A stretch of DNA of 64,000 nucleotides, from NCBI GenBank assembly GCA_950295325.1, contig OX485805.1, positions 34,833,501-34,897,500 of the forward strand. Reading direction: 5' to 3'. This DNA is from Polytrichum commune (taxonomy: Eukaryota; Streptophyta; Polytrichopsida; Polytrichales; Polytrichaceae). A program made the position numbers and the translations under genes. The first letter of the stretch is position 1, and each line of letters starts with the position of its first letter. Of the stretch, positions 8,866 through 46,096 are shown in pieces. Below the pieces are notes generated by a model. The model saw nothing but the letters and a program-made list of their open reading frames with translations. It had not been told where the DNA came from and made no database searches.

Positions 8866-8872
8866 CTGAACT

Positions 8873-11835: not shown

Positions 11836-11837
11836 AT

Positions 11838-19004: not shown

Positions 19005-19102
19005 GAATGGTTTTTATAGTTTGAGCACATAGCCCAACCTCATTGTAACACATGTCGCTTTCAAGTTTGTGTATATTTGTAAACTATACCACTCAAATAT
19101 GT
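19005..19102 (+). repeat. left half of the split host segment (flank of giant transposon)
   Basis: This matches 11838-11936 and ends with ATGT (19099-19102), the left target duplication. Its continuation lies 27 kb away at 46124. Confidence 0.85.
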
Positions 19103-19129
19103 AACACTATATTAAACATTTCGGGACTT
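19103..19129 (+). repeat. left terminal inverted repeat of the giant transposon
   Basis: 27 bp, starting AACACTATATTAAACATT and ending TCGGGACTT, identical to the complement of 46097-46123. ATGT precedes it. Confidence 0.92.
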
Positions 19130-19159
19130 GGCGTCAATATGGGACTTCTGGAGTGTCCA

Positions 19160-19201
19160 TTGAGATCGCATTGGGAACGCATTGGGAACGCATTGGGAAC
19201 A
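19160..19201 (+). repeat. left subterminal repeats (GCATTGGGAAC, three copies)
   Basis: Three direct copies of GCATTGGGAAC start about 65 bp inside the left end. The core GGGAAC recurs in many copies, in the same inward orientation, inside the right end. Such subterminal repeats are typical transposase binding sites. Confidence 0.7.
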
Positions 19202-19537
19202 AATCCTATGTTGTGTAGCAGTGACCCCTAATGGACTCCCAGTTGATTGCAACACTACTTTGACCGGTTCAAATGAGTGGGTGAGTGGAGGCTACAGCCT
19301 TGTACTCGAAAGAAAAGAATTGGTAACCCATACACCAAGTTTGTAGAACAATTACTGTTTGAATTGAGATCTTTATTCCTGAAGCATATGTCGAATGCCT
19401 CATTCTTAGGCGTCTACATACATGTTTGGCTATATATATGTCCCCACCGATATGTGGCTAAAGGGGACGCATTATCAACTATAGTATTTAATACATGTTG
19501 TGGCTTCTACAGGTCGCTCAATTGTAGTCCTGCCTCG

Positions 19538-20337
19538 TCAAGCGATACGATTATTTCCACGGTCACCCAATCCAGCCCGCAAAAGTCGAACTGCCCTTGA
19601 ATTAGGGCCTTGAGATTCGATGAGTGAAATTTGGTAGTCCCGTGTAGCAGCGGGGTGCACGATGGCCAAAGTTCCGCATGGAGGTGTTGAAGCATCTGCG
19701 AGGGTGCACATACTGGTGTCAACGCCCTCCACATGGTTAATGGTGGAAGGGAGCTTCGTCATGGCGGGTTGAGGGGCATAAGTCTTCCCAAGTCCTGCCA
19801 ATCCAGCACGTAGAAGACGAACACCTCTTGAGTCAGGGCCTTGCGATTCGATTAGCGCAATTTGGTACTCGCGGGTAGGGGTGGGGCGCATAATGGATAA
19901 TGTATGGGCGGGTTGTGGTCCGTCATCCATTGGGGGGAGCATATTTAGGTCAACATCCTGCAGGCCGACATAGGCAAAAAACATTCTCCAACTTATTGCC
20001 CCACAAATACCACCAACATTCATATACATGCACATACATTCCACGCCAAATGTTGGAGATTAGATAGAGATTGAAAAGGAGATTTGCAAAATATTTATTT
20101 GGGTAAGAACATTCCCAGGTGAACAAAATGAGCTATATTTACCAGACTCTGTCCATCAGGGGTTGCTTCAGCGAGGGGTGACACACTTTGAGAGTTAGCG
20201 ACCTGGATAGCTTCTACGCCCACGTGGGTGAGTGAGAAGGGATGGCAGGCCAGTACTACGTTGTGTTCATGCCGCGGGGTGAGACACACGAATGCCGATC
20301 GCTTGGAAGTGGATGGTGTGTATCCAGCAGGAGGAAA
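19538..20337 (-). CDS. C-terminal exons with two copies of a 40-residue module
   Basis: Exon 20337-20143 (acceptor GTTCAG, donor GTAAAT) leads in frame to exon 19957-19538 (acceptor CTGCAG). The last exon contains the module TREYQIALIESQGPDSRGVR followed by LLRAGL, and about 75 residues later TRDYQISLIESQGPNSRAVR followed by LLRAGL, so a segment was duplicated within the gene. I do not recognise the module. The two exons may be the C-terminus of the HAD protein or a separate small gene, because the HAD exon ends in a stop at 20421. Confidence 0.5.
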
Positions 20338-23300
20338 CTGAACAAAGCATATAATACACAATGTTACATGCCATACAATTCATGAACCTTACATGCCCTA
20401 ACCTAAACCCTACATGCTAACTATCTTGGGACATCAGTTATAGGGTGCAAGTCGGGTCGATTGGAGTGCTTGTTGGCCATCATAAGTGACTCCCTGACTG
20501 GATCGTTATGCGGGACCGGCTGTTGCCCAAATCTATGTGTGATCACAAAATCGCGTACGTCGCTCATTGTCGAATTGAACATACGTTGGAAGTAGGGGAG
20601 AAAAACTGCTCTCATATCCGCAGTTGCCTGTTTGTTGGTGATGAAGGAATCGGGAAACAATACATTCCCGGGAGGATTACAAGCACCTTTGTAGGGGTTG
20701 TCATCCACAAGAACAGTGTTCTCAATAGTGGCAGTAACACGTCCGGAATCAAGAGATACAGGCGGCCACCAAAATGTTTTGTTTAAACTCTTGAAGAACA
20801 ATACTGATTCTGGCTTTAGGGGGTTCCTGATCTGATTGTCCCAGATGTCTTTGAATGTGATGCAATCCTCCTGGCCAAGAACTATTGCAGGTCTTGACAT
20901 CCCATTGAATAGAAACTCCACCACGAGGTCCACAGTGGACTTTTTCATAGATGACCATATGCAAACATAGAACATTTGGGTCATTCTCTCCCAAAACTGC
21001 TTGTAACCCAGTCTAGGTAGGACAGCTTTGGGACCGACAATCGCCGGACCCTTGTCTGGCGCACGATCTTGCACCATCCATGTGGGTAAAGCGGAACGGC
21101 CGCGAGGAATACAATGACAAAATATGCCATTCAAATCGAACACCAGAATGAACCTTCGGTCGGGTACAGCAGCTAGCGCCTGGCGACAGGAATCCATTGT
21201 CAACTTCTCCTGCTTTACTCGAATTACATATAATGTTGCAACTAATGAAAATTGTGGAACTTCATATATTCAAAAACTTACATTCATATATGCAATAGGT
21301 GCATATATTGATATGGGGGTTTATAATGAACTAAATATTAAAAGTTATTATGAACTGGGAAACCAATACCTCGAAAGTTATGGGATTGAATTCCCAGCGA
21401 TCCGATGGTCCTAATGAAGGGTCTTGAGGGTCCCTAGAAATAAGTCTTTTAGCACACGCTATTCCCATCTCCCTCGTGAAAACTTGAGAGATGTTCCTAT
21501 CGTACGTTGGGTAGTTGTCAGCGTAAACAAAAAGTTTATCATAAACAACGTGTGGGTTGAAGGGCGCATCCACAGTCGTTTGCGCATTTTGTCCACCCTG
21601 AACCCAAAACTACGCGGAGATGAATGTTTGGGACACAAATAAACCGGGTATATTGAAAAGAAAATCCAGTGGACCAAGTGAAATTTTATTGAGAAGGGGA
21701 AACGAAGCTTACACAAACTAAGTGCCATGAGAAGGGGAAACGATGCTTACACAAACTGGGAGAGCTGGCCGCACACGCAGCTCTGGGCAAGTGACCTCGG
21801 AACGGCTGGCGTGCATAGCCCGCCAAGCCTCAAATGGACGTTCGGCTATTTTTGTATTGTCAGGGGGAAAGTCGGGGAACCTGTCATCGCGTGGCCAACG
21901 TTCCACGACTTTCTTGACATGATGTGGGCCGACAGAAGATGAAGGCTCCGTTGGATCGACGACAGCGGGCTCCGTTGCATCAACGACAGGAGGCTCCTCA
22001 CAATGTGGAGCCTCGGGTTGGCAAGGGCCTGCAGAAGAGGAAGGCTCCGTTGGCTCCACGGTAGCAGTACAGTAACAAGGTGGTGATATTGGTTGTTGCA
22101 GGCCTGCAGATGATGACCCGGGCTCTGAATGTTCGATGACAGCCTGCTTCAGAGCAAGAGGTTTGATGGCAGCAATGTGGACCGCTGTGGGCGAAGGCGA
22201 CTTGACCACATCATCGTCACTACCTATGGGCAAGAGGGGTGAACGATCCCCTTTGTCCAAAGGGGTGACGACAAGCGTTGGACTTCGACATGTAGTGGCA
22301 ATGGGGGCTTGCATGGGGCCAACTATAAGTGAGGTGTCCTCTTCGGCTGCACCCGTTTGCGGGACTGCTACACATGGTGATCCTGGCCGTGTGAAATCAA
22401 CGATTTGCAAACCAGCCTGTGAATTGAACATGCATTGTTAATGACAGCCGTTGCAGACAATGTAATTGAATGTAAAATGTAAAACACATTTCATTGAATG
22501 TAAAATGTACATCTTCCAAGTACCCAGTACATGGTGAGTTTGGCTACAACTAAAATGTCCTAAAGGTTTTTAAGTCCAATGCTCTAGTCAGCCTTGGATT
22601 GCGATCTACAAACGGCTTCCTATTCTCCAAGTGGTTTGATTATGATGCGCGGCCTCCAACCTGGATCAAACATCCCGGCGGAGATTCAGTGACTAGCATG
22701 TTTAAAAACAATTGGAAAAGCGAGAATAGGTCAAGGATATTTACCTCATCTTCAACAGGCTGGGAATCATGGGAAGGCCCCTCCACGCATCCGGCATCTG
22801 CAGGTGAACTTTCCACTTCGTTCTTCTCGGCCGATTTCTCAGCAACCTCCGGTTGATCCACATGAGCTGGCTCGACTTGAGGAAGGACATCTTGGGGAGG
22901 GTCAGTACCAATGGGGGCAGAAACAACCTCCGCATTTGTTGGTACAGGGGCCGGAGTAGGAATTGGCGTGGGCACGGCTTGAGAGGGTGGCATGGCCTGG
23001 GCCATGGCATCCTTGAACAGGCTCGTTAGTAAGCCTGGCAAATTTTTATTCAAAATGCCCATCATGAGAGGTTCCAAAACAGCCGTCGTAAGTGGGGGCT
23101 CCACGGGCTTACCATGGCGGCGTTTATGCCTATCCTTAGTTGAGGACCGACTTCGTGAGCGAGAGGACTTCCTATGTGGAGTGTCCATGGCACCACTAGG
23201 ACCAACATCGGCAGTACTGGGTCTGAGGGGACTCTGTGGAATGTCCATGGCACCACTAGGACCAACTTCGGCGGTACTGGGTCTCTGGGGACTACGTGCA

Positions 23301-26300
23301 GCAGGCTGTGGAGGTTGGTAGGTGTCGGGAATAGAACGAGGGGACTCCAAAACCACATCGACATCTTCGACCTCCTCTTCGACATCCTGGGCCTCTTGGA
23401 TATCCTGATCCTCGTCAAGGGCATCCTGATCCTCTTCTTCGACATCCTGGTCCTCATCTTGGTGTTCTTCATCCTCCTGCTCCTCATCCTCCTGGTCCTC
23501 ATCGTCAGCCGGGTCTTGGTCATCGCGGTCTTCGTCATCGAAGTCAAGTTGCTTCGCTCGCAGCGGCGAAGCACCGAGATCGCAGGCAGTCGACATATGC
23601 TCTTCCAACGGAGTCAAACCGCCAGTGGCATCATCGTCCGAGTGCTGGGACGTGTGGGGGGATTCGCCATGGCTCTCGATGTCGGTATCCCGTTCACTTG
23701 GAGGCTCCACAGACTCATCATCTTCATCGTCAGGAAGATCTTCCACATCGGAGGGGTTTCGGTCAATGTCCATGGCCTCGATCGGTTCGCGATCTTCGAC
23801 ATCCTCCTGTGTAGCAACCATACAATGTCAACAACTATCTCATATAAAAGGGGAGTGAGAAAATGATGATTTTCATAAACACAAGTAATTCATTAGCAAT
23901 ACTTACCAAAAGCAAGGGTGGATCTGGGTTGAGGTCAGGGTGAATGTGGCCATCGTGGGCTTGATACTCATCTTCATCTTCGGCTTGTTCAGCAAAATCC
24001 TTCAGCTTAAGTACGCAAACACGTTGAATCAACGCGTCCAGAATATGCAAGAATGCCGAATCCATGTAGGAAAAGACGTTGTAATCGTGCATCTGGAAAA
24101 TCAATGAGGTTAGAAAAATGGAAGAGGGAAGAGGTGAAAGGGAACGAATTGAGATAGTTCAGATAGGTGGAACTCACCAACGCTGCAGCAACTGGTTTCA
24201 AGCCCCCAAATAGATTGAGAACCATGCCTCCGGCGGAGCCCATGTACTCCAAGAACTTAATATAGACCTCCATTCTGAGCTCCCCTCGATTCACTTCATA
24301 TGTCAACTCAGACCAATCCTTGGGTTTTACTTTGTATCGGCGCGAATCCGGGGCTAGCATTGGACATGCAATTACCTTCCACTTGGGAAATTTATCTGGG
24401 ACAATGAGGTGGTCGATGTAGAAGGCAGGGGTTTGCCTCTTTCCATCTATTTCTTTGGGGTCGGCTAATTCCTCTGCAGGACAAGGGAAATAGAACGACG
24501 GGACGATCACAAACGTATTGGGATGTCTGCGCATAAGCGACGACATGAATACGAGCGAGGCATCGTGGCTACGCAAGTCGGAGACAATCATCCAAGCTGG
24601 AACAGATTTCACCCCTGGTGTCCATTCCGGAGAGCACAAGTATTTAACCAAGGACTCCACAACTTCAGGAGGGATTGGTTTATCTACACATCCAGGGATG
24701 AACCTGAAGTCCAGAAACCCCGCGGCAATGATGTTTCCCTCAATCCACTCAACATCACTGGAATCTTGCTTGGGAATCACCAATCGTTTCTTAATGGCAT
24801 TATGCGACACCCACCGCGTGATCACTTGCCCTGTGCATTTGTTGAAATCTGTTTGGAGCCAGTCGCGAAGCAATCGGTCTAATGCCGGCTGTACCGGCAA
24901 GGACTTGTTGTTAGTTGCCATTTTCTTGTTCAGCCAATCTGAAGTCGCAACCTGGTAGAGCTTTACCCATTTCGGCTTTGTAATTCCATGCTCCCGTTTG
25001 AATTTTGTCCATACGTCGCGATCGAGGAACCCATGCCCCTCATCATCCTTCTTCCACACGCCAACTTTATTGGGATCCCGCCTATCCAACTCCTGCAGCA
25101 AGATATTCTTCCACTTGCGAAAATTGCACCATGACTTCAGTGTCACGACTTTGCTGTTCTTGCAAGTCCTGAGAGTGACACTACGAACGCCGTCCTCTCC
25201 CTTCCCTTCTAGAAGCCGTCTCGCTGCCAGGTGAAAGTCAGGCTTTGTGAGTCCTGACATGTTCTTGAACGTCTCCCTTGTAAGGGATTTAGTCACGAAA
25301 GGTTTCTCCTCGAAGGGTGTTCCTGCCTTGGACTTCTCGTGGCGAGCTCGCAATTTTTGCTGAGCCTCCACATGATCTTCCAGGTATGTGCGTCCTGGCT
25401 TGTCCGGGTTGATAAATAAACCCTTCTCGTGCGACACGAACACTTTCTTCCACAATCTTGATGTTTCCTCAGGGGCCATAATTAACGTGAGTTCCGCTTT
25501 AAGATCGTTATGCGTGATCCCTCTTGCGATTGCGGTGAATGATGCCTCCATACTGGTAGTGAAGTTCTGCACATCACGGATACAGGAGTGAGATTCATGA
25601 TGAACACAATGTGAAGGCTCACCACTTTCACTCGATCAAGTGAAAGTGGTGTGAGGCCATGGTCACCACTTGAGGTGACGGCTCACCACTTTCACTCGAT
25701 CGAGTGAAAGTGGTGTGAGGCCATGGTCACCACTTGAGGGAGCAGATGAATTAAGGGGAGCAGAGAGTAACATACCTTCCAAGCCAATGCTTTCTCAGGG
25801 TCCTGTGTGGCCTCAGAGGCGTTCGCACGTTGCTTTTCGGGCTTGTTCAACTTCACCCATACCCTGCGACAATACAGAATTTGTGTAGTCCATGTTGGTG
25901 TGAACTTGTTGAACGAGTTCGAATTGTTCAATGTATATGAAAGTCTGACGGTCATGCTGGGGTCCTCTGTCCACACAATTGTGCAGGGCCACACCTTCAA
26001 CTTTTCCTTGAGCTTAGGATCCGTATCTCTATAAGCAATTATTTCCGTAGATGCGGCTACAGTATGTTGCCCATTGATTATGGCGAATTGCATGTTCTTG
26101 ATGTCATCCCTTCTCGCCATGTCTCACCTTTCTTAAACTTCAGCATCAAACACAGATTGTGCTGAGACCATGCAGGTGGGGTTTGGATGAGGTAGTTCTT
26201 CATGAGGTTCACCCCACTTGGATCCAGCGGCCGCGTAACATGATAAGCTTTTGCGCCCTTCATTTGCTTGATGGGTACACGGAATATCGATTCTGCGCCG

Positions 26301-27190
26301 AATGGATAAATGTGCCCAAAAAGTTGCAAAAACTTCTTCCTATCCAGAGCAGCTTCCTCAAGGCTGGGTTGTTGACCTTGCGATATAATTCGACCCTTCT
26401 CCGCTTGAGTCAAGACCAGTGGGGTGTCCTCATGCATAACATCGTCTTGCTTCATTTTCTTTTGCTTTGGTTTCTTCTCGGGTGACAATGCCCTCTTTCC
26501 TTTCTTTTTCCTTCCACTCCCGGCATCTCCAACATCCCTCTCCGTGTTCTGAGAATCTGGTGCAACGTGGGGCTCCACCTCGTGAGGCTTCTCTCTCTCC
26601 GTCTCCTTTGATGCAGTTCGCTCTTCAGTTTGTTTCCCCTTCTTTGCCTTCGATTTTTGTCCAATAGAGCTGCCACCTTCGTCGGCCTTGGACTTCAATA
26701 TACCCTTGGCTTGCTTCTTCTTTTGCTGCCTTGATTCTTCACGTGTAGCTGCATCTCTACTGTTGATGTCTTCCAATGTCTCCAACACAAAGTTTATGGC
26801 TCTTTTGGTTATTCCAGATGACATCACCTTCTCTATCTCTTCCTTCTCCTTTGAAGGGAGTGAGGCTACGGACTCATAAAATGGCACCAAGAGAAATGTA
26901 TGCTTCTTGCAATCTATAGATAAAATTCTCTCTTCCACCCCCTCCATAACCGAAACCTCTAGCCTATCCCTCGCTCCCACATGAGCGATGGTAATTGGAT
27001 TTCCAGGGTTCGGAATCCAACTATTGTTTACCTTGTACGTGAATATAAGGTCGTACCCTGAAGATTGGTTTTTCTTGTTAATAGCCAGTGACCACTTCTG
27101 CAAATGGGAGTCCCTAATTACCCATTGAGGACCATTTGGCCCTGCTTGTCTGGATCCAACTAGATCTGTCCATAAAACAACTTTGTCCAT
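19538..27190 (-). CDS. multi-exon gene: ParB/Srx-like + MTase-like + acidic linker + FCP1-like HAD
   Basis: On the minus strand I can chain exons at 27195-about 26085, 26120-25776, 25566-24178, 24092-23907, 23806-22745, 22416-21751, 21597-21370, 21209-20421, 20337-20143 and 19957-19538. Introns have GT/AG ends and every junction I could resolve is phase 0, so long frames join cleanly. Two joins are uncertain: an apparent frame change near 26100, and the end of the HAD exon, which reads into TAG at 20421 unless a weak donor is used. The modules are described separately. The first ATG I can defend is at 27190, but more 5' exons are likely. The gene lies wholly inside the giant transposon and faces its left end. 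Confidence 0.65.
20421..21597 (-). CDS. FCP1/NIF-like HAD phosphatase domain exons
   Basis: Exon 21597-21370 and exon 21209-20421 encode a domain with the order of HAD motifs seen in FCP1/NLI-interacting phosphatases: FILVFDLNGIF (motif I), VCIWSSMKK (motif II), a lysine-bearing KPESVLFFKSLNKTFWW segment (motif III) and NTVLVDDNPYKGA (motif IV). FCP1-type enzymes remove phosphate from serines of the RNA polymerase II tail and related substrates. Motif I reads DLNG where active enzymes have DxDxT/V. The nucleophile Asp is kept but the general-acid Asp is Asn, so activity is doubtful and a binding role is possible. It is an unusual domain for a DNA transposon. Confidence 0.72.
21752..23806 (-). 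CDS. acidic, Ser/Pro-rich linker exons
   Basis: Exons 23806-22745 and 22416-21751 encode about 576 low-complexity residues. The first part is strongly acidic (long runs of Asp/Glu with Gln), then comes a duplicated RPSTAEVGPSGAMD/RPSTADVGPSGAMD segment, an Arg/Ser basic patch (KSSRSRSRSSTKDRHKRRHG) that could be a nuclear localisation signal, and Pro/Val-rich sequence. The second exon is rich in EPSSSAG-type repeats. The linker is probably disordered, joining the N-terminal domains to the HAD domain. The acidic region on one strand explains several long shadow frames on the other. Confidence 0.6.
23907..25566 (-). CDS. degenerate DNA-methyltransferase-like domain exons
   Basis: Exon 25566-24178 and exon 24092-23907 are open throughout (463 and 62 codons) and join in phase 0 across a GTGAGT donor. 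Near the join the protein reads RMEVYIKFLEYMG, then GGMVLNLFGGLKPVAAALMH, then YNVFSYMDSAFLHILDALI before QRV. This resembles the end of beta-class DNA methyltransferases, where a lysine/arginine-Pro/Met-Glu helix precedes the SAM-binding VLDLFGGSG motif and a MELD-type acidic residue follows. The expected catalytic DPPY-type motif upstream is absent; the best positional match is IVSDLRSHDA. It may be a non-catalytic relative. This is motif reading only. Confidence 0.45.
25567..25775 (-). repeat. intron with two 66-bp units each holding a 30-bp palindrome
   Basis: Two tandem units carry ACCACTTTCACTCGA followed by its reverse complement. The copy at 25685-25714 is perfect over 30 bp; the copy at about 25621-25650 has one mismatch (CAAG for CGAG). 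They lie inside an intron (donor GTATGT at 25775, acceptor TGCAG at 25567) and belong to the palindrome family at 27253-27614 and 39161-39893. Confidence 0.85.
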
Positions 27191-27195
27191 TCTTC
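25777..27195 (-). CDS. ParB/Srx-like N-terminal domain with charged linker
   Basis: The first well-supported exon (27195 to about 26085) encodes an N-terminal region, a long Lys/Glu-rich linker with basic patches (KKKGKRALSPEKKPKQKKMK), and then FRVPIKQMKGAKAYHVTRPL with LDPSGVNLMKNYLIQTPP. The next open frame (26120-25776) continues with QFAIINGQHTVAASTEIIAY. A VP.xxI...R.LD..V..L helix-strand start and a NGQH/DGQHR-type loop followed by an A-rich helix are the signs of the ParB/sulfiredoxin fold. The two parts are in different frames with no room for an intron (31 nt at most), so a one-base frameshift or a second start at ATG 26118-26120 must be assumed. ParB-like domains N-terminal to DNA methyltransferases are known in bacteria and phages. 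Confidence 0.5.
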
Positions 27196-27204
27196 CTGCA
27201 AAGT

Positions 27205-27772
27205 CCCCCAATAAGTTAGGAAACCACATAACTCCACAATCCATCCAGCCAGCACTTTCACTCGATCGAGTGAAAGTGGGGCTTGGCCATCAAGCAAGCC
27301 AGCCAGCCATCTACTGGCCACTTTCACTCGATCGAGTGAAAGTGGGGCTTGGCCATCAAGCAAGCCAGACAGCCATCTCTAGCCAGCACTTTCACTCGAT
27401 CGAGTGAAAGTGGGGCTTGGCCATCAAGCAAGCCAGCCAGCCATCTACTGGCCACTTTCACTCGATCGAGTGAAAGTGGGGCTTGGCCATCAAGCAAGCC
27501 AGACAGCCATCTCCAGCCAGCACTTTCACTCGATCGAGTGAAAGTGGGGCTTGGCCATCAAGCAAGCCAGACAGCCATCTCCAGCCAGCACTTTCACTCG
27601 ATCGAGTGAAAGTGTGGCTTGTCTTGAAACCATGTTGGTTGTCCGTACAGTTCCAGGTGTGAACACGGATATTTCCAGCCTCAATGTAAAGAAACACTTC
27701 GACCATAAGCAATGCATGTAAGATTATGAATGTTTGGTATATTTCTTGACATTTAATGCAAGCTATGAAATT
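27205..27772 (-). repeat. intron-borne palindrome array, six units of 66-68 bp
   Basis: The 26-bp perfect palindrome CACTTTCACTCGA + complement occurs at 27253, 27319, 27387, 27453, 27521 and 27589. The intervening 40-42 bp are nearly identical (GGGCTTGGCCATCAAGCAAG, then GCCAGCCAGCCATCT-like sequence), and two unit types alternate. The array lies between a GTAATT donor at 27774 and a TTTGCAG acceptor at 27196. Frames read through it in both directions are artefacts. Confidence 0.92.
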
Positions 27773-27774
27773 AC

Positions 27775-28113
27775 CTGATTTGTGTGAACAATCTGGTTGT
27801 GGATTTGCAACTCAGGCTCCAATTGCACGAACTCCGCGTTGGTGTCTACTGTTAGATAGTTATAATCAACAATTAGAGCACTGCTGGATAATTTACATGT
27901 GATTTGTGAGGTGTCTACATAAATGAAGATGGATGCAATTTCATATTCGGGGAAGGGTTTGGCCAATCTGAATATCTTGTGCCTCTGGATTTAGGGGCCT
28001 GGAGTGAAAAAAACGAACCGGATTGTTTATGGATCAGGTTGGAAAGACCTCAAAAAGTGAACAACGTGCTTATTCTGAAAATTCAATATGCCGAGATCCT
28101 TGAGAATAAGTTT
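27775..28113 (-). other. possible upstream exon(s) of the ParB/HAD gene
   Basis: Frame 27984-27775 on the minus strand encodes protein-like sequence (EYEIASIFIYVDTSQITCKL) and ends at a good GTAATT donor. A shorter open stretch lies at about 28113-28024. The 27984-27775 frame does not join the 27195 exon in the right phase, so either a small exon is missing or one of the splice choices is wrong. Another donor (GTATGT) near 28406 follows an open frame that begins about 28520. Confidence 0.3.
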
Positions 28114-28636
28114 AGGATGCTGTGTGTGAAGATTGCAGGTGCATAACAAACAATGAATGTAGAACACAAAAGTTGAGTAGGTTCGAGGCTCCAGGCGCAT
28201 TCAGTGATGAATAGACATCACTGAATAGTTGAGCAATTGCGTTGAATGAATAGACATCAATGAATAGTTGATCAATGAATAGTTGAGCATGTCCATAGAA
28301 ATTTGACTAATATATTTGAACAAACAAATAGAGAATGACAAACATCAAGCAAAATGCATACACACTGAAATGAATAAAAACAGCATGCTCTTTGTGAACA
28401 TACCAGGTGGCTCCCAGGTGAGGAGGGCAGTTTAGGAAGATTGAGAATGTTGAGGGACCAGCGAAAAGGGAGATGATGCAGAAAGTTTGTGGAAAAGGGA
28501 AGATTCAGATTCTTGGGCAATGTGCATACTAGAGGCAGAGCTCAACCAGATCTTAGTAAAGCCAGTTGCATACTAGAGGAGGAGATCAACCACATTTGAG
28601 TGAAGCAAGGTGCATGCCAGAATTGAGTGAAGCAAT

Positions 28637-28835
28637 GTGCATACTAGAGCAAGAGATAAACCAGATTTGAAGCTATCAATGTGCATACTAGAGCAAGAGA
28701 TAAACCAAGTTTGAAGCTATCAATATGCAGACTAGAGCAAGAGATAAACCAAGTTTGAAACTATCAATGTGCATACTAGAGCAAGAGATAAACCAAGTTT
28801 GAAACTATCAATGTGCATACTAGAGCAAGAGATGA
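28637..28835. repeat. tandem repeat, 44-bp period, about 4.5 copies
   Basis: Units start GTGCATACTAGAGCAAGAGA at 28637, 28681, 28725 (variant), 28769 and 28813. More degenerate units with GCATACTAGAG precede them from about 28520. Confidence 0.85.
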
Positions 28836-29235
28836 AGAAGCAAGGTGCATAGACAAAGCCAGTAGCAGAATGTTGGGGAGCCAGGGGCGAGGAGGGAGGA
28901 GAAAGGAGGAGAAAACAATCTGAAAGGCATGAGCGGGGGAGGTCATTCTGGACACTGCTTGGGAACGGCCACGTCCCTTCGCGATCTCCCGATGGTCAGG
29001 ATTCCGCCGTCAAAGATGGACGGTCCAGATCCGAGACACCTTCCCATGAAGTAGGTACTTGTGAGTAGGTTAGGGTGGTGTAGTCTCACCCGTTCTCATT
29101 AAGGAGGGTGTGGGTTAATAGGTAGAGTACTTCCTACTAATTGTAGAGGGTACTGATTGCAGTGTATGTTGTTAGTTGGTGATTTATGATTCCATTACCA
29201 TACCAAATGGTCTTTCATCCAAATTTCATAATTCC

Positions 29236-29597
29236 AAGACACTGGTTCTTCAATTTAGGCGATTTAAAAGAGATTGGACTATGTATTGAAACATTGATAA
29301 CTACTCTACTCAAAAAAGTTACCACAATTGAAAGGACCTATATACGCAGCTCAAAAATCGACGAACATACACTTTCGATAACCATATATATACGTTATAT
29401 ATATTACACATTTATAGTATATATAACTTGCCGTTATATAACTTGCAAGTTTTATAGACTTATAACGTATATATACTATAATAATAACTGATATATATGA
29501 GACCTATATGTATAAGGCAAGTTATATATACATATATATAATAATATAATAATATACTTATATACTTATATATAATAAATTGAAGAACCAGTGTCTT
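29236..29597. repeat. 22-bp perfect inverted repeat bracketing AT microsatellite
   Basis: AAGACACTGGTTCTTCAATT (plus TA) at 29236-29257 is repeated in reverse complement at 29576-29597. The sequence between is mostly TA-rich repeat after about 29385. The unit looks like a small foldback element, or half of one filled by microsatellite growth. Confidence 0.75.
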
Positions 29598-29830
29598 ACA
29601 TACATATATGTATATAATAATATATGTATGTAATATATATATAATATATGTATGTATATATAATAATATACAATTATACTTAATATACTTCAGATACTTC
29701 AGATACTTATAATTATACTTATAATTATACTTAATATACTTCATAATATACTTATAATTATACTTAATATACTTCATAATATACTTATAATTATACTTAA
29801 TATACTTAATATACTTAGAAATTTTATTAA
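29385..29830. repeat. TATA/TATACTTA-type microsatellite tract
   Basis: Dense TA, TATATG and TTATACTTAATATACTTCATAA-type repeats. Open frames here (for example 29460-29882, minus) are Tyr/Ile/Lys low-complexity artefacts. Confidence 0.9.
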
Positions 29831-29844
29831 TTATACTAAAATAA

Positions 29845-30004
29845 ATTAAAAAATCCACATTAGGACATTGAGAGTAGCACATTCAATTTAAATTGGGATA
29901 CTTTGGATGACAATCATGCGTTTTAGTATGTAAGGGGAAGATATTATTAATATTTTGGAATGCAAAAGGAAGATATATATGCAGCTCATAAATTATACAT
30001 ATAC

Positions 30005-30035
<31 letters not shown>

Positions 30036-30440
30036 CATGTATGTATATGTATATTTTTATGACTCAGAGTGGATTACGTGCTTAAAAGTTTTTAATGATA
30101 CTAGTTTGCATAGTCAAATGCGATTGAATTACTCAATCTATCTATGTGCACTAGAACTACACCGTTTATGATGTTAAATTAGTGTCAAGTGCACAATTTA
30201 CGAAGGGCCTAAACTAGATGCCTAGGGGTCTCAAAGTGTCAAGTCTACTAATTGCCCAATGGCATATGATACAATTCATCAACATAAGTAACATCTTTAA
30301 GCAAAAAAATTAAATAAAAAATCCACATTATGACATTCAGAGTAGCACATTCCAATACTCTAGATGACAATCTTGCGTTTTAGTGTGTTCAATTTAGATT
30401 ATATTAAAAATTTAGAATGCAAAAGGAAGATATTCTCAAA
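29845..30440 (+). repeat. direct repeat pair of about 85-120 bp
   Basis: The stretch AAAAAATCCACATTAGGACA... to ...GCGTTTTAGTATGT at about 29847-29930 recurs at about 30313-30390 with small changes. A TTAGAATGCAAAAGGAAGAT-type block accompanies both copies. A CATA microsatellite (30001-30055) lies between. Confidence 0.75.
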
Positions 30441-33400
30441 AGGCATACTAATGGCAAGTGTCATACTAGGCATACAGTCTAATGAACTTGTAGACCATTG
30501 TGTAACATAGGCATGCACCTCGTGACATTGTATGTGACACTACATTCCACACTAGATTGTGTAGTGGTCGGTTCTCTCTATTGATTGCTCTTCAGACGCT
30601 TAATAAACATTTATAGGATTTCATTTCAAATAGTGACATTACATAAACCAATTCAAAAATGGATGTTGCATAAAATTAGACATGATAGTTAGGTGCTTTG
30701 TTCAAGTACTGTAACTTTTGATGAAAGTTTACCGTTGCCACCTGGTCCAATTAATAATAATGATCCCACATAAGCTAGGCATACCCAAAACTAGGCCAAG
30801 GATGCATCAGGGTTCGGGAGACTTTGGAGCTCAACCAGCTCAAATCCGCCCCTTCACAACTTCTACCGGTTTCTTCAGGATTTGACCGGTTGCAAACTTG
30901 TTGCCATTGATTTGGACCGGCGGTGAACCCATCTTTTTTTTCAAGTGCCGGTTAATTTCTTCTTCATTGTAATGACGACCAGCCAAGAACTTGGGTATTG
31001 ATAAGTAAGCCATGCCTCCAATGTAGCAAAATTATGAATAGCAATAAAGAAGCAAAAGCTTCGCTTATTCGCCATTCACCAAATCGCTACAAGCCTACAA
31101 TGCACAAATAACCTAAACCCTAGAACCAGATGATATTGTGTAGATGAATCAAACCGGATGAAATTTGCCTATTTCACAATTCATCCGGGTAAGAATCCTC
31201 CTCCTGAAAATGGTTGCCGGTTGAAATCCGTTGTGTTTTCAAAAGCACCGGTTTACACTAAATGCCGGTTGGACCCGGAGATTGGGATGCATGCCATTCA
31301 AGCAAGTTGAAGGTGAATTTCAAACGATTCAAAAACCCTTGTAGAGTCTTAAATGCCCCCATATGATCAACGCAATTTCTAATGACAGATGGGTGCTCGA
31401 AGATTGGTGCCATTGGAACATGTTTCGGTTCCTTCTCTTAAAAATAACACTTCTATTGAATAACTAAGTGCAGATCTACAAATAAACACCAATTTGAAAA
31501 TCACATATTATATGTACTAGGCAAGATTGGACCAAGTGCCCCAAACTTAAGTGTCACTTCCTATTTGGATTATACGAGGCTATATGTAGTGTCCAATAAT
31601 TCTTTATGCAATAATTCTTTCCGTCCAATGTTCAAGTTTTGAAGTAAGCACACCTAGTTCAATTGCTCAACTTCAATAGACACCTATATTTGATAGGGTA
31701 TGTAGTCAAGTACGGATAAGTTGTTTGAAAAAGGGATTGAACTACATGCTTCATTTTTTCCAGAAGGTTCTAGGCCCTTTAATCAACATGCGGGGGTGGG
31801 GACAGTAATTCGATCATTTCAGAAGGAAAAAATATCTTCACTTTTGCATTGTATTAGATACATGTACAAGCTTCAAATATAATGAGGAAAACAATGATGG
31901 GCATGATATGGATTTGCTAATAATCTTGCACTAATTGCGTATTGTAAGTACGACAGTATGTAGGGAGTAGAAGATAGTTAACATTTAGAGAGGCATGACA
32001 GTTATAGGTGTAACATTTATATCGTGACCGGTGGCCTGTAGTGGGTTCTGAATATATATCTATATTTCCCCTAATTTTAAGTTACGGAGCCCATTATAAC
32101 CAACATATATCTTCACCATGACCGACAACAACTACTTCGACCCTAAACCCTCCACTCCATAAGGTCCTCACGTCTATAATATACAAATATCGACTTCTCA
32201 CGTTTACAATATCAATCTATCGACTTCTAGGGTTTGCCATGCGCGTTCATGCATCGGTCTACTTATCGGTGATGGGTGCGTTAATATCGGTTATGGGTGT
32301 CTATTGCCTCAAGCCTGCACGACGGTGTAAGGATGTTGAGTGTTCGTAGTACTACACATAAGTTAAGGGCTCTTAATTGCAAGGTGTTACACTGTTGGTT
32401 ATAACATATCAGTTGGTATGTATTTAATTTGTGGTATTGATTATAACATATTATGGTGAAAGTGGGTGTCGCAAGGGTTAGCCCTCCATCCCATATTAAT
32501 ATTGTGCACTTTCATAAGGCTACTAGTAGGCAAATTGAATCCGCTGGCAAGTCTTTCAGACCGTCTAGTTGTGCATGATCGTCGTCCTATTAATGGTTAG
32601 TGGTCTATAGACTGTGGTGCATATATGTCCCAACCCACTCTAGGTACACTAAATATGATATTTAGTGTTAGATACACAAAATACGAACGCATACACTAAA
32701 TATTAGTAACCCTAGATGAAAGTAAGTAACATTAATTGTGAACTATATGAATTAATCCACATATTGCACACTATAAAATTAATGTTAAACATGTTAACTG
32801 TTTACAAAATGGTACTCCCTTCTTTGTAAATTTGACTCTATAAATGTTAACGAATGAAATACAACCATAATATTCCATCCTATGGTGACATACAATCTAG
32901 TTTTGGTACCATTAGAAGGTACATGGCTACACGTTTATGTGATGTGTCCAAGTATGTGGGTTTGTTCTTGGTGCAGATTGAGAAATATTTGGAAGTTGTG
33001 GAATCAATGCAAATGAATCTCACCAAAGGACCATTGATTCATACTTCACCCGTGATTTGTAAACTTGTGTTTCAATATAATTATAGTTTTGATTGGGGAT
33101 TGTAATTTTATGAACGGTATTCACCCACAAGGACTCTTAACAATTGCGTCTATTTACAAATGTGGAATTTTGTATATTGCTCAAAAAAATAATTTTATAA
33201 CTGTGTTATGTCAATGTTATGTTATGTTAACATGTCATGTTATGTCAATATGACATTCAGATAAATTGGAGCACACCCTGTGGCCCTATTACTTATATCT
33301 CGCGCAACCAAGTGTGTCAAGTCAAGAAAGTTGCATCAAAATGTTGTACACACATACTTACTAGGCTAAGCAGGCTAACAAGGAATGATCATAATATAGT

Positions 33401-34070
33401 TGCATTTGACACTCTTCAAACTTTGACCATTTTTATTGAGAGCTATCAGTTTTTAACATCATCATGGTATCTACTAGGGTCATGCATAACATTCATTTGC
33501 AGATTTTGTCACTTGAAACCCTTTATTGAGTTGGATGAAGCGTGGCATTCAACAATTTGAATGCACTTTCTAAATTTGTAATTGCAAGACTTCATCCATA
33601 TATTAATATGCTTTGACAAGTTTACTCCACAAGTTTACTAGTAGGGTTTAGGGTACCCTAAACTTGAATCAGCATTGTTTACTACCCCAAACAATACATT
33701 GTGCTCTATTAAACACTCCAAACAATGGGTGCTCATGTGGATCATTAGCCCTAAGCCGATGTGGCATCACAATTTAACTTCTAATGAATGACATCGCTGG
33801 GTAAACGCCATTCATCGCTCAATATCACAATACTTGATGAGTAACATAATTCCCTACATGCATAATACTACCTTAAGGGTTGCCCCACACTTTTACGGTG
33901 ACCATATAAACAAGACTTAAATCACAAAGATTGCATACAAACAAACTTCTCATCCATCAACATAAGGAACACTTGGCTCACATGATAGGATTGTGGCCAC
34001 AGACCTGATCATGATATCAATCAAAGTATTCAAAGCCAGTATGGAGTTCACTAAAGTACCTTAACCAAAA

Positions 34071-34136
34071 AACCCTAAACCCTAAACCCAAACACAGACC
34101 CAAACCCAGACCCTAAACCCTAAACCCTAAACCCTA
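34071..34136 (-). repeat. interstitial plant telomere-type repeats (CCCTAAA)
   Basis: A run of CCCTAAA units, some mutated to CCCAAA or CAGACCC. A shorter TTTAGGG block lies at about 35745-35767. These are the plant telomere motif in an internal position, here inside the giant transposon. Confidence 0.85.
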
Positions 34137-36336
34137 CAAACGAAACCCAAACCCATACACAATGGATGTATAGTAGAACCCATGAATTACTCCATAAACA
34201 ATATGTGGAGACATAGCATGAATTGCATAGCACACATGAAGAGCCATGATGACAGTGTTCTGTGGCAATGTACGGCCAGTACATCGGTTTAGTAACGAGC
34301 CGGCTGATAGTTTTGCGGTGATTTCCAATTGATTATGGACTGATTCGGGATGGGGTACCGTGACATGTGTATCATGTTGAGGTCGGAAACCTACCGATTC
34401 CAGCTGGCGAGTTGAGGGGACAACGACCAGTTGAGGGATTTACTTCATAGTCCAGGAATGTTACGAAGTCCACTTAGCCATTAGAGGCAAGTAGCCGAAG
34501 GGACTAGGGATAGGGCGGAAATGTTTCTAGTGTTCATAATCTTTAGTATAGTCAATATGACACCTTTGGGGAGCGCAGAAAGCCACCCTAAACCAGCTAA
34601 AATTCCTATTATGACAGGTGGTCTAGAATCTTCTAATCTGATAGTAGGGAATACAAACATGTAAGCAATATGTCATTGAGCTTAAAAACATATACAACTT
34701 GGTCAAACAATATAGGTGGAATTTATAATATACATGTGACAATATATTCAAATAATTTGAAATATACATGTGACAATATAGATTGAAGAGTTATAGGATC
34801 TATGGTGTTGCCTACCTAAGTTGTGAACTGTCATCTTATATTTTAAATTCCTTAATAGCGTTTAAAAACTAAAAAATTTATTAACACCAAAATGTAAAGA
34901 GTTGTCCGATTAAGAGTTACACAACAATGTATAATGACGTAACGCATCACTAGTAAGATTCACCGTAGGTGGTTGGTGTGAACATTATCATGATCCACAT
35001 CTCTTCAATGCACATGAACATTGAGATGAAAGCCGTGTGCACGATTTCTCAATTTTGGGTCAGTAATCCCTTCCCCTTCCATCCGAATATAACTTAGTCT
35101 CGAATGACATCTAGTAATCATCATAATTCAGGGGTTAGCTCCTAGTTCATATTTAATTTAGACAATTTTGGCTTGAGAATGTTTCGATCCAATGGCATGA
35201 TTATTATAGTATATGGCTTAGCCCTCCATCCCATAATGTGTCAGCTCTTGGACCTAACATAATATGAAACTATACATTGTGACCAAATTGAATGGTGGAT
35301 CCGAAGCATTAATTTACCATTGTGAGCGGAACCCCTTGGAATGCCACACTGAAATTTCACATCAATACATTAATTGTCTTTCCTTATGAACACATTAATT
35401 TTAAATTATGTTGGAGATTGGGCTTGGTCCAATAATTAGATTTAGGCAGCTGTAGCCAGGGACCATTATATTAATTGGTAAAACAAACTAACAAATCACC
35501 TCATGTTTAGCACATTGTAAGCCTTTTGTGAGAAAATCCTGGCGTGCAAGGAATTTTCAGACATAGCACTTAATATGAATAACTTGGAAGTTGAGGAACC
35601 TAGTAGGAAATTTGTAAATCCATATACAAATTGAATGTATTTGGGATCGTTTTTGTAATCGTAGCCTGAGTTGGGGTTTTTTTTTGGTTTCCCATTCATT
35701 GTAATTTGCTCAAAATGCAAACCAAAGTGGCACTTAGAGTGTAAGGGGTTTAGGGTTTAGGGTTTACGGTGAGGAGTAGGGTTGATGGGCCTCCGGAGGC
35801 TACTCAATCTTAACTAATATTTAACTCACACATCAACTTTTCGCCTATTGGTTACACTATTGGAGTCAATTTGTTTAGGGTACAAGGGTTTAGGGTCAAT
35901 TTGAGACGGCATCCTCTAATGTTAGTTGGCGGCACAAATTTCGAATGTTAGTTGGAGGCACAATTTCCGAATGTTTGTTTGTCAGCGCAAAATTGAAATT
36001 GTTGTTGATTCAGAAATGTTTTCTGTTTACGAAATACCCCAGAGATGTTGTTGATCACAAATGTTGTTGGTTTCACATTTGCAAACTTTAAGGTGACTAA
36101 CCCAAACATCATGATCAAGGTTGCAAATACCAAGTATTACTCACCCGCCAAGTTAAAGCGATCATTATACCACCGATAAGAAGCCAAATGAAAAGACATC
36201 CAAGTGAGGACTCCGAGGCTAACCAATGAGGTTCATTGCCCTAGGTTACTAAGGCAGATGGTCCACAATCCACTCAAATTTCAGTCTCAGATTGTCAATA
36301 AAGCACCTTTAACTCCGACCATATTAAATACAACCC

Positions 36337-36560
36337 AAAACCCTCAATAGCACAGCGATCATCACAATTTTGTGACTTACCATTGAAAACGTCTGTCATT
36401 CTGAAATGGAACTCAAATTAGGATGTTTATTCTATAGCAGATTAGTTGATAGCACACCACTTTCACAAATTATTCACATTCAACTAATTGAATGTAATTA
36501 CGTGTAAATAACCTTAACTAATCTCAATAAATAAGAAAGTATGCTTCACATATTGCATGT
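36337..36560 (+). repeat. diverged relative of one arm of the Mutator-like foldback
   Basis: The order AAAACCCTCA, TAGCAC, GTGACTT, CCATTG, GTC.TTGTCATTCT-like, then CTTTCACAAA and CAACTAATTGAATGTAATTA parallels 5212-5410 of the foldback element at 4890-6000. Only one arm is evident. It is an older copy nested in the giant transposon. Confidence 0.55.
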
Positions 36561-37035
36561 AAAACAATTAACACTAGCAAATTGATGTTTATCTATAAAT
36601 CAGACCATCACAACCGGGTCATCTGTAACCCGCGTTTGGCAGTCATGGATTACGATTTAGCAACGAAAACCACAAAAAATCAAAATTGAAAGTAATACCC
36701 CTGTGGAAAATAGTGGTTGCTCGCACCTCACTACAAGGAAATGGGTGTATAATTGACAAAAATGTGACACTAAAATGTCCGAAGTGACAAAATCAGCTCA
36801 AAGCTATGAGTTTTTGTCAATTCGGACATTATTCAAAATTTGTGTCAATTTTTTGTCATCAGATTTATATATTTCACGTTTAACTTATTCCCTTCACCTG
36901 AGCATGTGTCTCATATTTATTAACAACAAAAGGTGTTACAAAAGGTTTTTAATTATTGTAATTACTAGTATAAGTAATTAATATAATTAATGTATTTACT
37001 ATAATTAATGTAATAACTAATTTAATTAATTAATG

Positions 37036-37355
37036 TAAATACTGAAATTACCAATTTAAGTAAATACTGAAATTACCCTTTTGAGTAAATACTGAAATTA
37101 CCAATTTAAGTAAATGGGGAAATTACCAATTTAAGTAAATACTGAAATTACCAATTTAACTAAATACTGAAATTTGTTAATTTAAGTAAATATTGAAATT
37201 TTCTAATTTAGGTAAATACTGAAATTTGCTAATTTAAGTAAATATTGAAAATTTCTAATTTAGGTAAATACTGAAATTTGCTAATTTAAGTAAATACTGA
37301 AATTTGCTATTTTCAGTAAATACTGAAATTTGCTATTTTCAGTAAAATACTGAAA
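37036..37355 (+). repeat. 25-bp tandem repeat inside the CACTA element
   Basis: TAAATACTGAAATTACCAAT-type units start at 37036, 37061, 37086, 37111, 37136 and 37161, then continue at about 25-26 bp with TTGCTAATTT variants to about 37355. Confidence 0.88.
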
Positions 37356-37588
37356 TTATTGTAATTAATGTAGTTAAAATAATTACAATAATTACTGTAA
37401 TAATGTTTAGGAGTATTTTTGTAAATTGTTTTTAATACAAATACAATACGTACTAATTAAAAACAGTAAATACATTAATTCTATGCTTGTTTTTACTTTC
37501 ACTAATTAAAAAATATATATACATAAGTTTATAAGTCTTATGGCTTCTTCATACAAAACTCTTACATACTTGGCCTGTATCATGTAAT

Positions 37589-37767
37589 GAGCGGTGGCTT
37601 AGTGGCTAAGGCCTTCACACTATAGCCAAGAGGTTCAAGGTTCGATCCCCTTGACCCCTCACCCTTTGTCCATTAGCCTAGGTTAGGTGATGTGGCCCTT
37701 CGCCCTTAGACCTATGTGAGTAGGCTCCGAATGCGAGGGTGGATTACTAATTTAGGATTTTTTTACT
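37589..37767 (+). mobile_element. tRNA-derived SINE-like sequence
   Basis: An A-box (TGGCTTAGTGG at 37595-37605) and a B-box (GGTTCGATCC at 37639-37648) stand 33 bp apart, as in RNA polymerase III promoters. The 5' part folds roughly like a tRNA, with GAGCGGT against ACCCCTC as acceptor arms with one mismatch. The T-stem is imperfect and about 90 bp of unrelated sequence ending in a T-run follow, so this is a SINE and not a working tRNA gene. I could not find a clear target duplication. Confidence 0.6.
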
Positions 37768-38774
37768 AGTATAACTTGGACATTAAAGCACATCACCATG
37801 GGTAAATGACGAGGTAAAGAGAATCCAACATGGCAAGGGGGCCGGAGTAAATGGAATCCTACGTGTATAATTATCCCAGATGACAAAGAAATTGACAGAA
37901 CTCTGTTAATTGTATGACCGAATCAAGGTGCCCTATATGACACCCAAATTAACAGAATTTCGTCACATTTTTGTCAAATAGGTCATATAAACTTTTGTAG
38001 TGCCTATATCCCCATTTTTTTAACACACTGAGTGAACCCAGAGATATTATTGTGTTGTGACATGGCCCGAGCTCGTTGAATTGGGTGAACCCAAAATTAT
38101 GGGCCAAACCTTGGGTCACTGAATTGGCCTACCCTCTAGAAATGTTAACCATCGGGATCGCCACAACATTTATAGAGGTGTTAACAGCTAACAATTATTA
38201 TAAAAATATTATTATTTTGAACCCTATAAAAATCTTAACATTTATAAAGCTAACAAATAAACAACAAAATCACATTATATGTAGGCAAGCTTGGACCAAG
38301 TGCCGCAAACTTAATTGTGATTTTAGTCCCCTTCGTCAAATGTTACGATATTGGGGGGTGTTCAATAATTCCCTTTTTGCTTGGGAACATTGTACGCGCC
38401 TCAATAGCAGGGTATGATGCCCAAGTGTGATGGCAGTGGTGGGCCGAGGGTACCAATGGATAGGAATTACCAATTCAGGCGTGTTTTCATCCCATCAATC
38501 CAACTTGGATCCAAAGGCGTACCAGCGGGTAGTACGCGCTCATAGTGGTGATGCCCAAGAGTGGGCGATGTGCTAAGTATCATTACAGGATTGGGGGTGG
38601 ACCGGATTGGCAAAATTTCCCACGTTCACAATTGCATGATGTGCATGTAAATACCCACCAAAAGGCATCAAAAGCCGTCCTTCCGCCGGAGCTGTGACGG
38701 CCTAAAACGACAGGGAGGGAACCTTCAAATTTGTATTAGGGCACTATTCTCCCACCAAATCTGCTACACCCGTC

Positions 38775-38781
38775 TATATAA
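38775..38781 (+). promoter_or_regulatory. TATA box, probable promoter of the DUF7869 gene
   Basis: TATATAA in the context CGTCTATATAAGCCGG lies upstream of the plus-strand DUF7869 gene with no other gene between. The first coding ATG I accept is 1.26 kb downstream, so a long or spliced leader containing the palindrome array is implied. Confidence 0.5.
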
Positions 38782-38900
38782 GCCGGCAACATGCACACTC
38801 GCACCCTCTTTTGTCGCCCTCTGCCAGGGAGCACAGCACCACAACCTTCTTGTTGCTATCCCATCCCTGGATCCATAAACAAGGTTCGGTCCTACACATA

Positions 38901-39075
38901 TACCACACCTGCTCGAAGGGGTGTTGTAGCATATGTTGTTCCATGTGTTGTTCCATGTGCAGGGAGCATTGCAATGGCGGTAATACCACACCTGCTCGAA
39001 GGGGTGTTGTTCCATGTGTTGTTCCATGTGCAGGTCCATGTGCAGGTCCATGTGCAGGGAGCATTGCAGTGGCGG
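38901..39075 (+). repeat. 83-bp tandem duplication in the leader region
   Basis: TACCACACCTGCTCGAAGGG starts at 38901 and again at 38984. Each is followed by TTGTTCCATGTG and CAGG repeats and by GGGAGCATTGCA. Confidence 0.8.
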
Positions 39076-39160
39076 TAGTTTTCCAGGGCCTCTAATCATC
39101 CCTCTATACCGTACAGTACGGACGTGTAGCCAAAGCCTAGAAGCCAGAGCCAACCCAAGG

Positions 39161-39545
39161 GGTTTCACTCGATAGAGTGAAACCTCAAGGTCCATAAACT
39201 TAGCCAGAGCCAGCCCAAGGGGTTTCACTCGATAGAGTGAAACCTCAAGGTCCATAAACTTAGCCAGAGCCAGCCCAAGGGGTTTCACTCGATAGAGTGA
39301 AACCTCAAGGGCCATAAACTTAGCCAGAGCCAGCCCAAGGGGTTTCACTCGATAGAGTGAAACCTCAAGGTCCATAAACTTAGCCAGAGCCAGCCCAAGG
39401 GGTTTCACTCGATAGAGTGAAACCTCAAGGGCCATAAACTTAGCCAGAGTGAAACCTCCAGGGTTTCACTTGATCGAGTGAAACCCCATGGGCTGGCTAT
39501 GGCTAAGTTTATGGCCCTTGAGGTTTCACTCTATCGAGTGAAACC
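39161..39545. repeat. palindrome array, five 60-bp direct units plus two inverted copies
   Basis: GGTTTCACTCGATAGAGTGA(AACC) occurs at 39161, 39221, 39281, 39341 and 39401 in 60-bp units. At 39462-39485 and 39522-39545 the unit continues in the opposite orientation (TTGATCGAG and TCTATCGAG centres), so the array can fold on itself. It is the same palindrome family as the arrays at 25.6 and 27.3 kb but with GG/CC flanks in place of CAC/GTG. Confidence 0.92.
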
Positions 39546-39646
39546 CCTTGGGCTGGCCATTTTACTTACCTTTTTACTTACCTTTTTACTTCCCCTTTAC
39601 TTACCCAGAGCCGTAACACCACTTAATTATCAGCCAGCCCTTGAAG

Positions 39647-39893: not shown

Positions 39894-40041
39894 AAGTTCA
39901 TTGGCAGGCTGCTTGTGCTGGCAGCCAACATAGTGCGAGTGCAAGCTCTAATATGATTAAATAGCAGATTGTATGTGAAGCTATATGAAGGCCAAGTTGT
40001 AGCCCTGACTGCGCAAGTGTTTTTGTGCAAATTTGCGGAGA

Positions 40042-45780: not shown

Positions 45781-45786
45781 CACACC

Positions 45787-46060: not shown

Positions 46061-46096
46061 CAAAATGTAAAAAAATCTTCACTTTGGGACTCCCAA

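Follow-up and report, generated by a model that had tools for sequence, protein, structure and literature searches.

Why should a transposon carry a gene whose parts resemble a ParB protein, a DNA methyltransferase (MTase) and a phosphatase of the RNA polymerase II (Pol II) tail? The question is raised by a 64,000-nucleotide stretch of the genome of the moss Polytrichum commune (GenBank assembly GCA_950295325.1, contig OX485805.1, positions 34,833,501 to 34,897,500 of the forward strand; hereafter the window). An earlier sequence-only reading placed within a transposon here a single minus-strand gene, joining ParB/Srx-like and MTase-like domains through an acidic linker to an FCP1-like HAD domain, and suggested that this combination, which it took to be new, might mark or read the element's own DNA or affect its transcription. 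Eukaryotic transposons are known to carry ParB-MTase accessory genes, for which there is as yet no explanation. In this case, a lineage with very recent copies keeps the architecture, replaces the catalytic residues in three modules, and adds a HAD module of FCP1/NIF type. On balance, the accessory transcription unit probably yields ParB-like/MTase-derived, HAD and exon 9-10 forms that are DNA-binding regulators acting through the element's own palindromes, rather than enzymes.

The transposon spans 27.0 kb (19103..46123; copy W), and its homology with two sister copies, A on C2 and B on C5, is bounded by window positions 19103 and 46123-46125. A 27-bp terminal inverted repeat, AACACTATATTAAACATTTCGGGACTT, stands at the left end on the plus strand (19103..19129) and, by repeat comparison, at the right end on the minus strand (46097..46123), as well as at the ends of A and B. 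Target duplications of 4 bp flank all three copies, reading ATGT in the window (19099..19102, paired with 46124..46127), TTAT at A and GTTG at B, and the uninterrupted insertion site is seen in a sister repeat within the window at approximately 11837-13228. With these repeats, duplications and whole-length sister copies, the gene does lie inside a transposon, as had been proposed. A and B measure 22.4 and 22.7 kb, and the long aligned blocks stand at 99.2-99.8% identity, hence the family has moved recently. The transposase gene and the accessory gene lie divergently on opposite strands, each ending near one terminus. The repeat into which the transposon inserted belongs to a family of at least 2 kb, present in both orientations at window 7568-14536 and 46123-48136.

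The modules of the accessory gene travel together. Searching 407.8 Mb of genome in 64 contigs matched the MTase-like exon at least 98 times; of these matches, 40 full-length ones (residues 1-462 or 1-463, at least 58% identity, window included) and three distant ones (residues 92-462, 25-26% identity) were used. The HAD exon had 146 matches, and linkage was counted over the first 81, leaving out the 65 weakest (32-34% identity), which form a second family. Taking the nearest match, a same-strand HAD lies downstream of the MTase-like exon in 40/40 full-length copies, and within 7 kb in 37: the distance is 2.6-3.2 kb in 34 copies and 3.7-6.7 kb in three, while in the last three it is 8.6, 17 and 39 kb, distances that would fit nested insertions, although these matches may belong to another element. 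The three distant copies had no HAD match among the 81 rows used. The other copies were labelled L124-L152 and L161-L166. In each of the 29 further copies with fetched flanks (L124-L152), exon 1 matched over more than 200 residues beside the MTase-like exon, and the HAD exon is in the fetched stretch in seven of the eight copies besides the window that were read across the gene (A, B and L161-L166); in L164 the nearest HAD match is 8.6 kb away. The distant copy L166 retains the same order of ParB-like (26% identity), MTase-like (23%), acidic and HAD (29%) parts, and the same type of transposase, 54% identical, is found upstream of it, in L287. The exons are colinear in divergent copies, although L162 and L165 gave no match to exon 6b and the matches in L164 were confined to exons 1 and 3. 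Given this colinearity, and the HAD that follows in 40/40 copies, the series of modules is not a chance arrangement.

The accessory gene is under purifying selection between subfamilies. The ratio of non-synonymous to synonymous divergence (dN/dS) lies between 0.10 and 0.36 for exons 4, 6b, 7, 8, 9 and 10, with exon 9 compared over 19-33 codons and exons 4 and 6b at a dS near 2. For exons 1, 3 and 5, whose dS reaches saturation between subfamilies, the dN/dS values of close pairs are 0.09-0.53. Synonymous divergence between W and A also drops along the gene, from 0.14 in exon 1 to 0.006 in exon 8, with a similar pattern between L161 and L163, as if the copies may have exchanged 3' modules.

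The row of open minus-strand exons from 27190 to 19538 is as the sequence-only reading had described, with the chosen borders all GT-AG and in phase 0. Exon 1 (25776..27190) encodes an N-terminal region without known assignment, a basic linker and the ParB-like domain. Exon 3 (24178..25566), delimited by genome matches and motif rows, is MTase-like and ends in the motif-I-like GGMVLNLFGGLKPVAAAL, the MTase-like motif VLNLFGGLKPVAAAL ending at 24178. Exon 4 (23907..24092) holds the motif-II-like VFSYMD and the start of the acidic region, and exon 5 (22745..23806) is the expected acidic linker. There follow a short terminal exon 6a (22640..22660), the low-complexity linker of exon 6b (21751..22416), and exon 7 (21370..21597), which is 61-66% identical in four divergent copies, with dN/dS of 0.25-0.30 between subfamilies. 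Exon 8 (20421..21209) encodes the HAD domain and a terminal stop; exon 9 (20143..20337) follows a conserved acceptor 83 nt past that stop; and exon 10 (19538..19957) contains an internally duplicated motif (REYQIALIESQGP and RDYQISLIESQGP) before its own terminal stop.

The same reading's single, uninterrupted gene with a joined polypeptide is not supported by comparison of the copies. Exon 1 is frameshifted near 26108 in the window copy, with A, B and the database relatives open there. In all seven copies read for stops and acceptors (W, A, B, L161, L162, L163 and L165), a conserved stretch lies behind exon 5 and ends in the acceptor-like GATCCAG (GATCCAA in L165), after which come the short exon 6a and an in-frame stop. 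Downstream of this stop a conserved acceptor, TTCACAG/GCT, leads into exon 6b; the HAD frame then closes with a stop, again in 7/7 copies, before the conserved acceptor into exon 9. Exons 9-10 (20337-19538) are reachable only via splicing past the HAD stop. Past the exon-5 stop, four divergent copies have AATAAA, and W, A and B show only AATGAA. Transcripts ending between the modules had been named as a sign against a joined gene, and these stops and AATAAA signals are a weaker form of that sign. The frameshift, and the stops recurring behind both the acidic exon and the HAD exon, make alternative terminal exons likelier than one uninterrupted gene, the simplest model being one transcription unit with predicted alternative terminal exons in phase 0. 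A HAD gene starting at the MDSC of the HAD exon was rejected: in A and B that methionine codon reads GTG, and the open frame contains no ATG upstream of it, hence the HAD exon needs an upstream exon. A database search with the 1911-residue chain returned no protein carrying all the modules, but its hits were exon-sized, so the absence of such a protein is not shown.

The ParB-like module is well supported, by profile comparison, as being of the phage DGQHR type. Its Box I (RPLDPSGVNLMKNYL, 26190..26233, minus strand) and Box II (INGQHTVAAS, 26049..26078, minus strand) align in register with 116 phage DGQHR proteins at an hhalign score of 52.5 and a probability of 94-95%, the best score among 33 unrelated phage families being 27.5. 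When columns occupied in at least half of the rows were shuffled, 0/100 shuffles reached the ParB score, and the largest gave 22.5; an earlier control of 60 shuffles over all columns had peaked at 134.4, higher than the real score, which was put down, without proof, to sparse columns. The test is partly circular, since Box II was the criterion for choosing the DGQHR proteins. The phage DGQHR proteins keep the Box II arginine of GxxR, by selection of the set, whereas the moss protein has serine or threonine: across a 38-row alignment of own-family sequences plus P0004 and P0005, this position is Ser in 19, Thr in 15 and a gap in four, making Ser or Thr 34/34 in the informative rows. Mutating this arginine to alanine abolished nucleotide binding in the available portion of one study (PMC12704722). 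Searches of phage records by tblastn gave unrelated weak matches only, scans of viral contigs with family peptides gave no result, and the portion examined of two Paracoccus phage records carried no ParB-MTase annotation.

For the MTase-like module, identity is only suggestive, so that of the ParB/Srx-like and MTase-like pair originally proposed, the first half stands more firmly than the second. The prior for the assignment is raised by the ParB-MTase genes described in algal transposons. In the hhalign ranking, phage ParB-MTases came first of 35 families, matching on motif I (26.5 against 22.2), and in a hidden Markov model (HMM) ranking of the short region the best seven of 505 scored sequences were all ParB-MTases, with an area under the curve (AUC) of 0.885. 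Over the longer region the AUC for ParB-MTases was 0.725, and DGQHR proteins did as well (0.774). The family was aligned in 36 rows representing 31 distinct copies, five places occurring twice in the own-family alignments (L161-L165 being L141, L146, L143, L151 and L147). Motif I, (D/E)xFxGxG, is absent, with N-x-F-G-(G/D)-(L/T)-K-P in 36/36 rows. This FG(G/D)xKP stands in place of the FGGSG-type loop, its K and P being present in every row. Motif IV, (D/N/S)PP(Y/F), is absent too, and I-(V/I)-(S/E)-D is found in 36/36 rows with no PP after it. The motif-IV-like aspartate is kept in all 36, and the motif-II-like aspartate in 34/34 informative rows. A Rossmann MTase fold is considered likely, and methyltransferase activity unlikely.

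The HAD module, by contrast with the MTase-like one, is certainly of NIF/FCP1 type by its Pfam match, in agreement with the earlier FCP1-like assignment: exon 21209-20421 matches Pfam NIF (PF03031) at E 1.3e-9 to 1.6e-9, and all 18 aligned members match the same profile, the window row scoring 38.4 bits against a cut-off of 21.8. FCP1/SCP (NIF) tail phosphatases share this profile across the domain and a VDD-type motif, but the second aspartate of the catalytic DxDx(T/V) is asparagine (DLNG) in every row of the moss family that shows the motif. DLNG occurs in 25/30 database rows, the other five showing no such string, and in seven of eight own-genome copies; no DLNG was found in L162, a copy that additionally contains an internal stop. 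Decay of one copy was rejected as the source of DLNG, which is family-wide. Key catalytic residues are lost from all three modules in nearly every readable row, and this is conserved replacement rather than random decay, as seen in the Box II Ser/Thr (34/34) and the K and P of FGGxKP (36/36).

Candidate binding sites for the ParB-like protein are provided by long palindromes, a feature newly recognised in this analysis. Counting perfect palindromes of at least 18 bp with at least six G or C, the three whole elements have nine, 13 and 17, the largest count in a control, a crude two-base block shuffle, being one. A core, TTTCACTCGATCGAGTGAAA, is common to all but one, namely eight, 13 and 17 of them. 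The palindrome scan of the window placed six perfect copies of CACTTTCACTCGATCGAGTGAAAGTG ahead of exon 1 (27253..27614), two palindromes within intron 1 (25623..25712), one of which has one mismatch, and one core upstream of the transposase gene (39647..39666), where A and B have arrays. Elsewhere in the family, TCCACTCGATCGAGTGGA stands upstream of exon 1 in L161 and L163, the latter also having TCCTCTCGATCGAGAGGA in intron 1; L162, L164 and L165 have CTCTCGGCCGAGAG sites, four of the five in intron 1. Overall, a site is found in intron 1 in seven of nine copies and upstream of exon 1 in five of nine, the sequence varying by subfamily.

The account we favour is that the unit would make a ParB-like/MTase-derived protein with an acidic tail, while alternative phase-0 terminal exons would give forms carrying the FCP1/NIF-type HAD, or exons 9-10, instead. 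The ParB-like part would recognise palindromes of the element itself, close to the two gene starts and within intron 1. Pol II transcription from both gene promoters would be influenced by the acidic and HAD parts, perhaps by attachment to the Pol II tail with no dephosphorylation. These products would most likely be regulators that bind DNA, not enzymes. More tentatively, the whole could amount to a parS/ParB-like self-recognition system in a eukaryotic transposon, with palindrome arrays that co-diverge with the ParB-like protein, and inactivated enzymes serving as a reader and tether for transcription or anti-silencing. Of the role in marking or reading once suggested for the gene, the reading half is strengthened, since the palindrome arrays supply candidate sites, and marking by methylation is weakened, since the glycine pattern of the S-adenosylmethionine (SAM) loop and DPPY are absent from all 36 rows.

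Several observations weigh against this account, and the competing explanations draw on some of them. No match below E 0.03 came from scanning the ParB-like and MTase-like modules against Pfam, PHROG and NCBIfam, and PDB sequence searches with them gave only two irrelevant matches (E 2.2 and 3). With Box II masked, the ParB-like score falls to 16.8, below the best null of 27.5, with the register retained; compared with the ParB part of phage ParB-MTases, it is at background (rank 7 of 35). For the MTase-like part the match is weak, with an hhalign probability of 2% with 1/60 shuffles as high, and HMM E-values of 0.27 or worse, poorer with the longer region. An accidental resemblance of the ParB-like or MTase-like part, hiding some other fold, would be consistent with these results, but is unlikely when the ParB-like score is far above its controls, the motifs follow the phage order, and there is an algal precedent. 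A working MTase that marks its own element with N6-methyladenine (6mA) or N4-methylcytosine (4mC), as proposed for algal transposons, is more improbable still: the gene position and domain order are as described in the available portion of the report on Sola1-1_Ec32 (PMC12477816), and the motif-IV-like and motif-II-like aspartates are conserved, but FG(G/D)xKP replaces the SAM loop in 36/36 rows and the motif-IV-like site is without PP, whereas phage ParB-MTases, a set chosen for (D/N/S)PP(Y/F), retain FxGxG in 64/72. Captured genes are frequent in large DNA transposons, which could make the modules passengers without function for the element; this was rejected on selection and linkage, and is largely refuted and very improbable, as the modules are linked in 40/40 full-length copies, and across 23-29% identity, with purifying selection between subfamilies. 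Some close pairs run counter to such constraint: in HAD exon 8, dN exceeds dS between W and A (one synonymous and eight non-synonymous changes) and between L162 and L165 (two and 10), exon 9 behaves likewise between L161 and L163 on few changes, and exons 7, 9 and 10 differ between W and A by non-synonymous changes only (two, four and two).

The structure of the gene and the purpose of the palindromes are contested more closely. The splice forms are predicted from genomic DNA, and an in-frame ATG precedes exon 6b in 7/7 copies read, so a separate HAD gene is possible. Two or three adjacent genes, one ParB-like/MTase-like/acidic and another HAD gene starting at exon 6b, linked but never forming one protein, would be a plausible if less favoured arrangement, fitting the stop after exon 5 and this ATG, each in 7/7 copies, and AATAAA in four divergent copies. 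Yet AATAAA and the exon-6b ATG are only 48 bases apart in L161, the TTCACAG/GCT acceptor is conserved, all exons are in phase 0, and exon 9 needs splicing from upstream regardless. No helix-turn-helix was identified in the accessory protein, hence palindrome binding remains a guess; moreover, L166 has a single GTTTGGGTCGGCCGACCCAAAC, downstream of the MTase-like exon, a count that its shuffles also attain, and L287 has no palindrome of that kind. It is quite conceivable, though not what we expect, that the palindromes instead serve the transposase, DNA replication or insulation. A and B do have one array ahead of their transposase gene, but in the three whole elements most palindromes are situated around the accessory gene, and their sequence differs by subfamily.

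A second element protein that binds its own transposon has a parallel in TnpA of En/Spm, which is reported to bind repeats near the element promoter and ends, and arises by alternative splicing. However, TnpA is an unrelated protein, and its sites are subterminal repeats rather than long palindromes. Phage ParB-MTase fusions share with the moss gene the order of ParB, motif IV, and motif I near the C-terminal end (available portions of PMC6536676 and PMC12704722). They differ in having GxxR and (D/N/S)PP(Y/F), both by selection of the set, and FxGxG in 64/72, with no HAD seen, and their ParB part is of GHGR rather than DGQHR type. A close counterpart is Sola1-1_Ec32 of the brown alga Ectocarpus, a giant element (21.5 kb) in which a gene with ParB-like and DNA-methyltransferase domains runs opposite to the transposase, in a report that also points to cases in green and red algae (Iyer 2011; Petroll 2025) (PMC12477816, available portion). 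Compared by description, its 1104-aa accessory protein has an MTase domain of the 6mA/4mC type, whereas the moss MTase motifs are degenerate, and the available portion mentions no HAD module, palindromes or alternative terminal exons (PMC12477816). The ParB-MTase core is thus already known from algal transposons, and the combination is new only in its additions: no report of a HAD module in a ParB-MTase transposon was found in the open-licence literature, nor of palindromes with such a gene in open-licence literature listings. Self-recognition and self-regulation of transposon DNA become directly testable, because candidate binding sites are present. The case also counsels caution, as the labels "methyltransferase" and "phosphatase" on transposon cargo may denote readers rather than enzymes.

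As to the class of the element, the N-terminal part of the transposase gene (39989..41065, plus strand) is 32% identical over 272 aa to the distant element L287, and its DUF7869 domain (43226..45322, plus strand; Pfam PF25273, E 9.2e-40) is 54% identical to L287 over 503 aa. CACTA (En/Spm) elements have CACTA at the very end and a 3-bp target duplication; membership was rejected, as the termini read AACACTA and the three copies have 4-bp duplications. Sola1 elements have a 4-bp target duplication, as found at these three copies (ATGT, TTAT and GTTG). From the DUF7869 transposase and this duplication, the element is probably a giant two-gene DNA transposon of Sola-1-like type, the transposase being assigned by Pfam DUF7869. 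A duplication of 4 bp is also given for Sola2 in the available portion of PMC3627910. Within the transposase gene region lies a C-rich tandem array of CCGTCCGCCCC (41049-42744), both flanks of which align with A and B by blastn, while the array itself does not.

Further HAD-like sequences occur outside the accessory gene. The second, very uniform family occupies 65 genomic places, mostly as intact open reading frames of approximately 261 aa whose HAD is 32-34% identical to the accessory HAD; it probably represents a further mobile family that carries such a domain. Immediately beyond the limits of copy A there are two HAD-like pieces. Near-identical HAD copies in inverted pairs at C2:23.19-23.28 Mb and C6:4.959-4.972 Mb suggest tandem or nested insertions, or segmental duplication. 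Rfam and tRNA scans of the window gave no result. PCIF1 is a cap m6Am methyltransferase, and at window 49825-51171, on the minus strand, an open reading frame of a non-long-terminal-repeat retrotransposon, beside an RNase H region, matches Pfam PCIF1_WW (E 4.8e-9).

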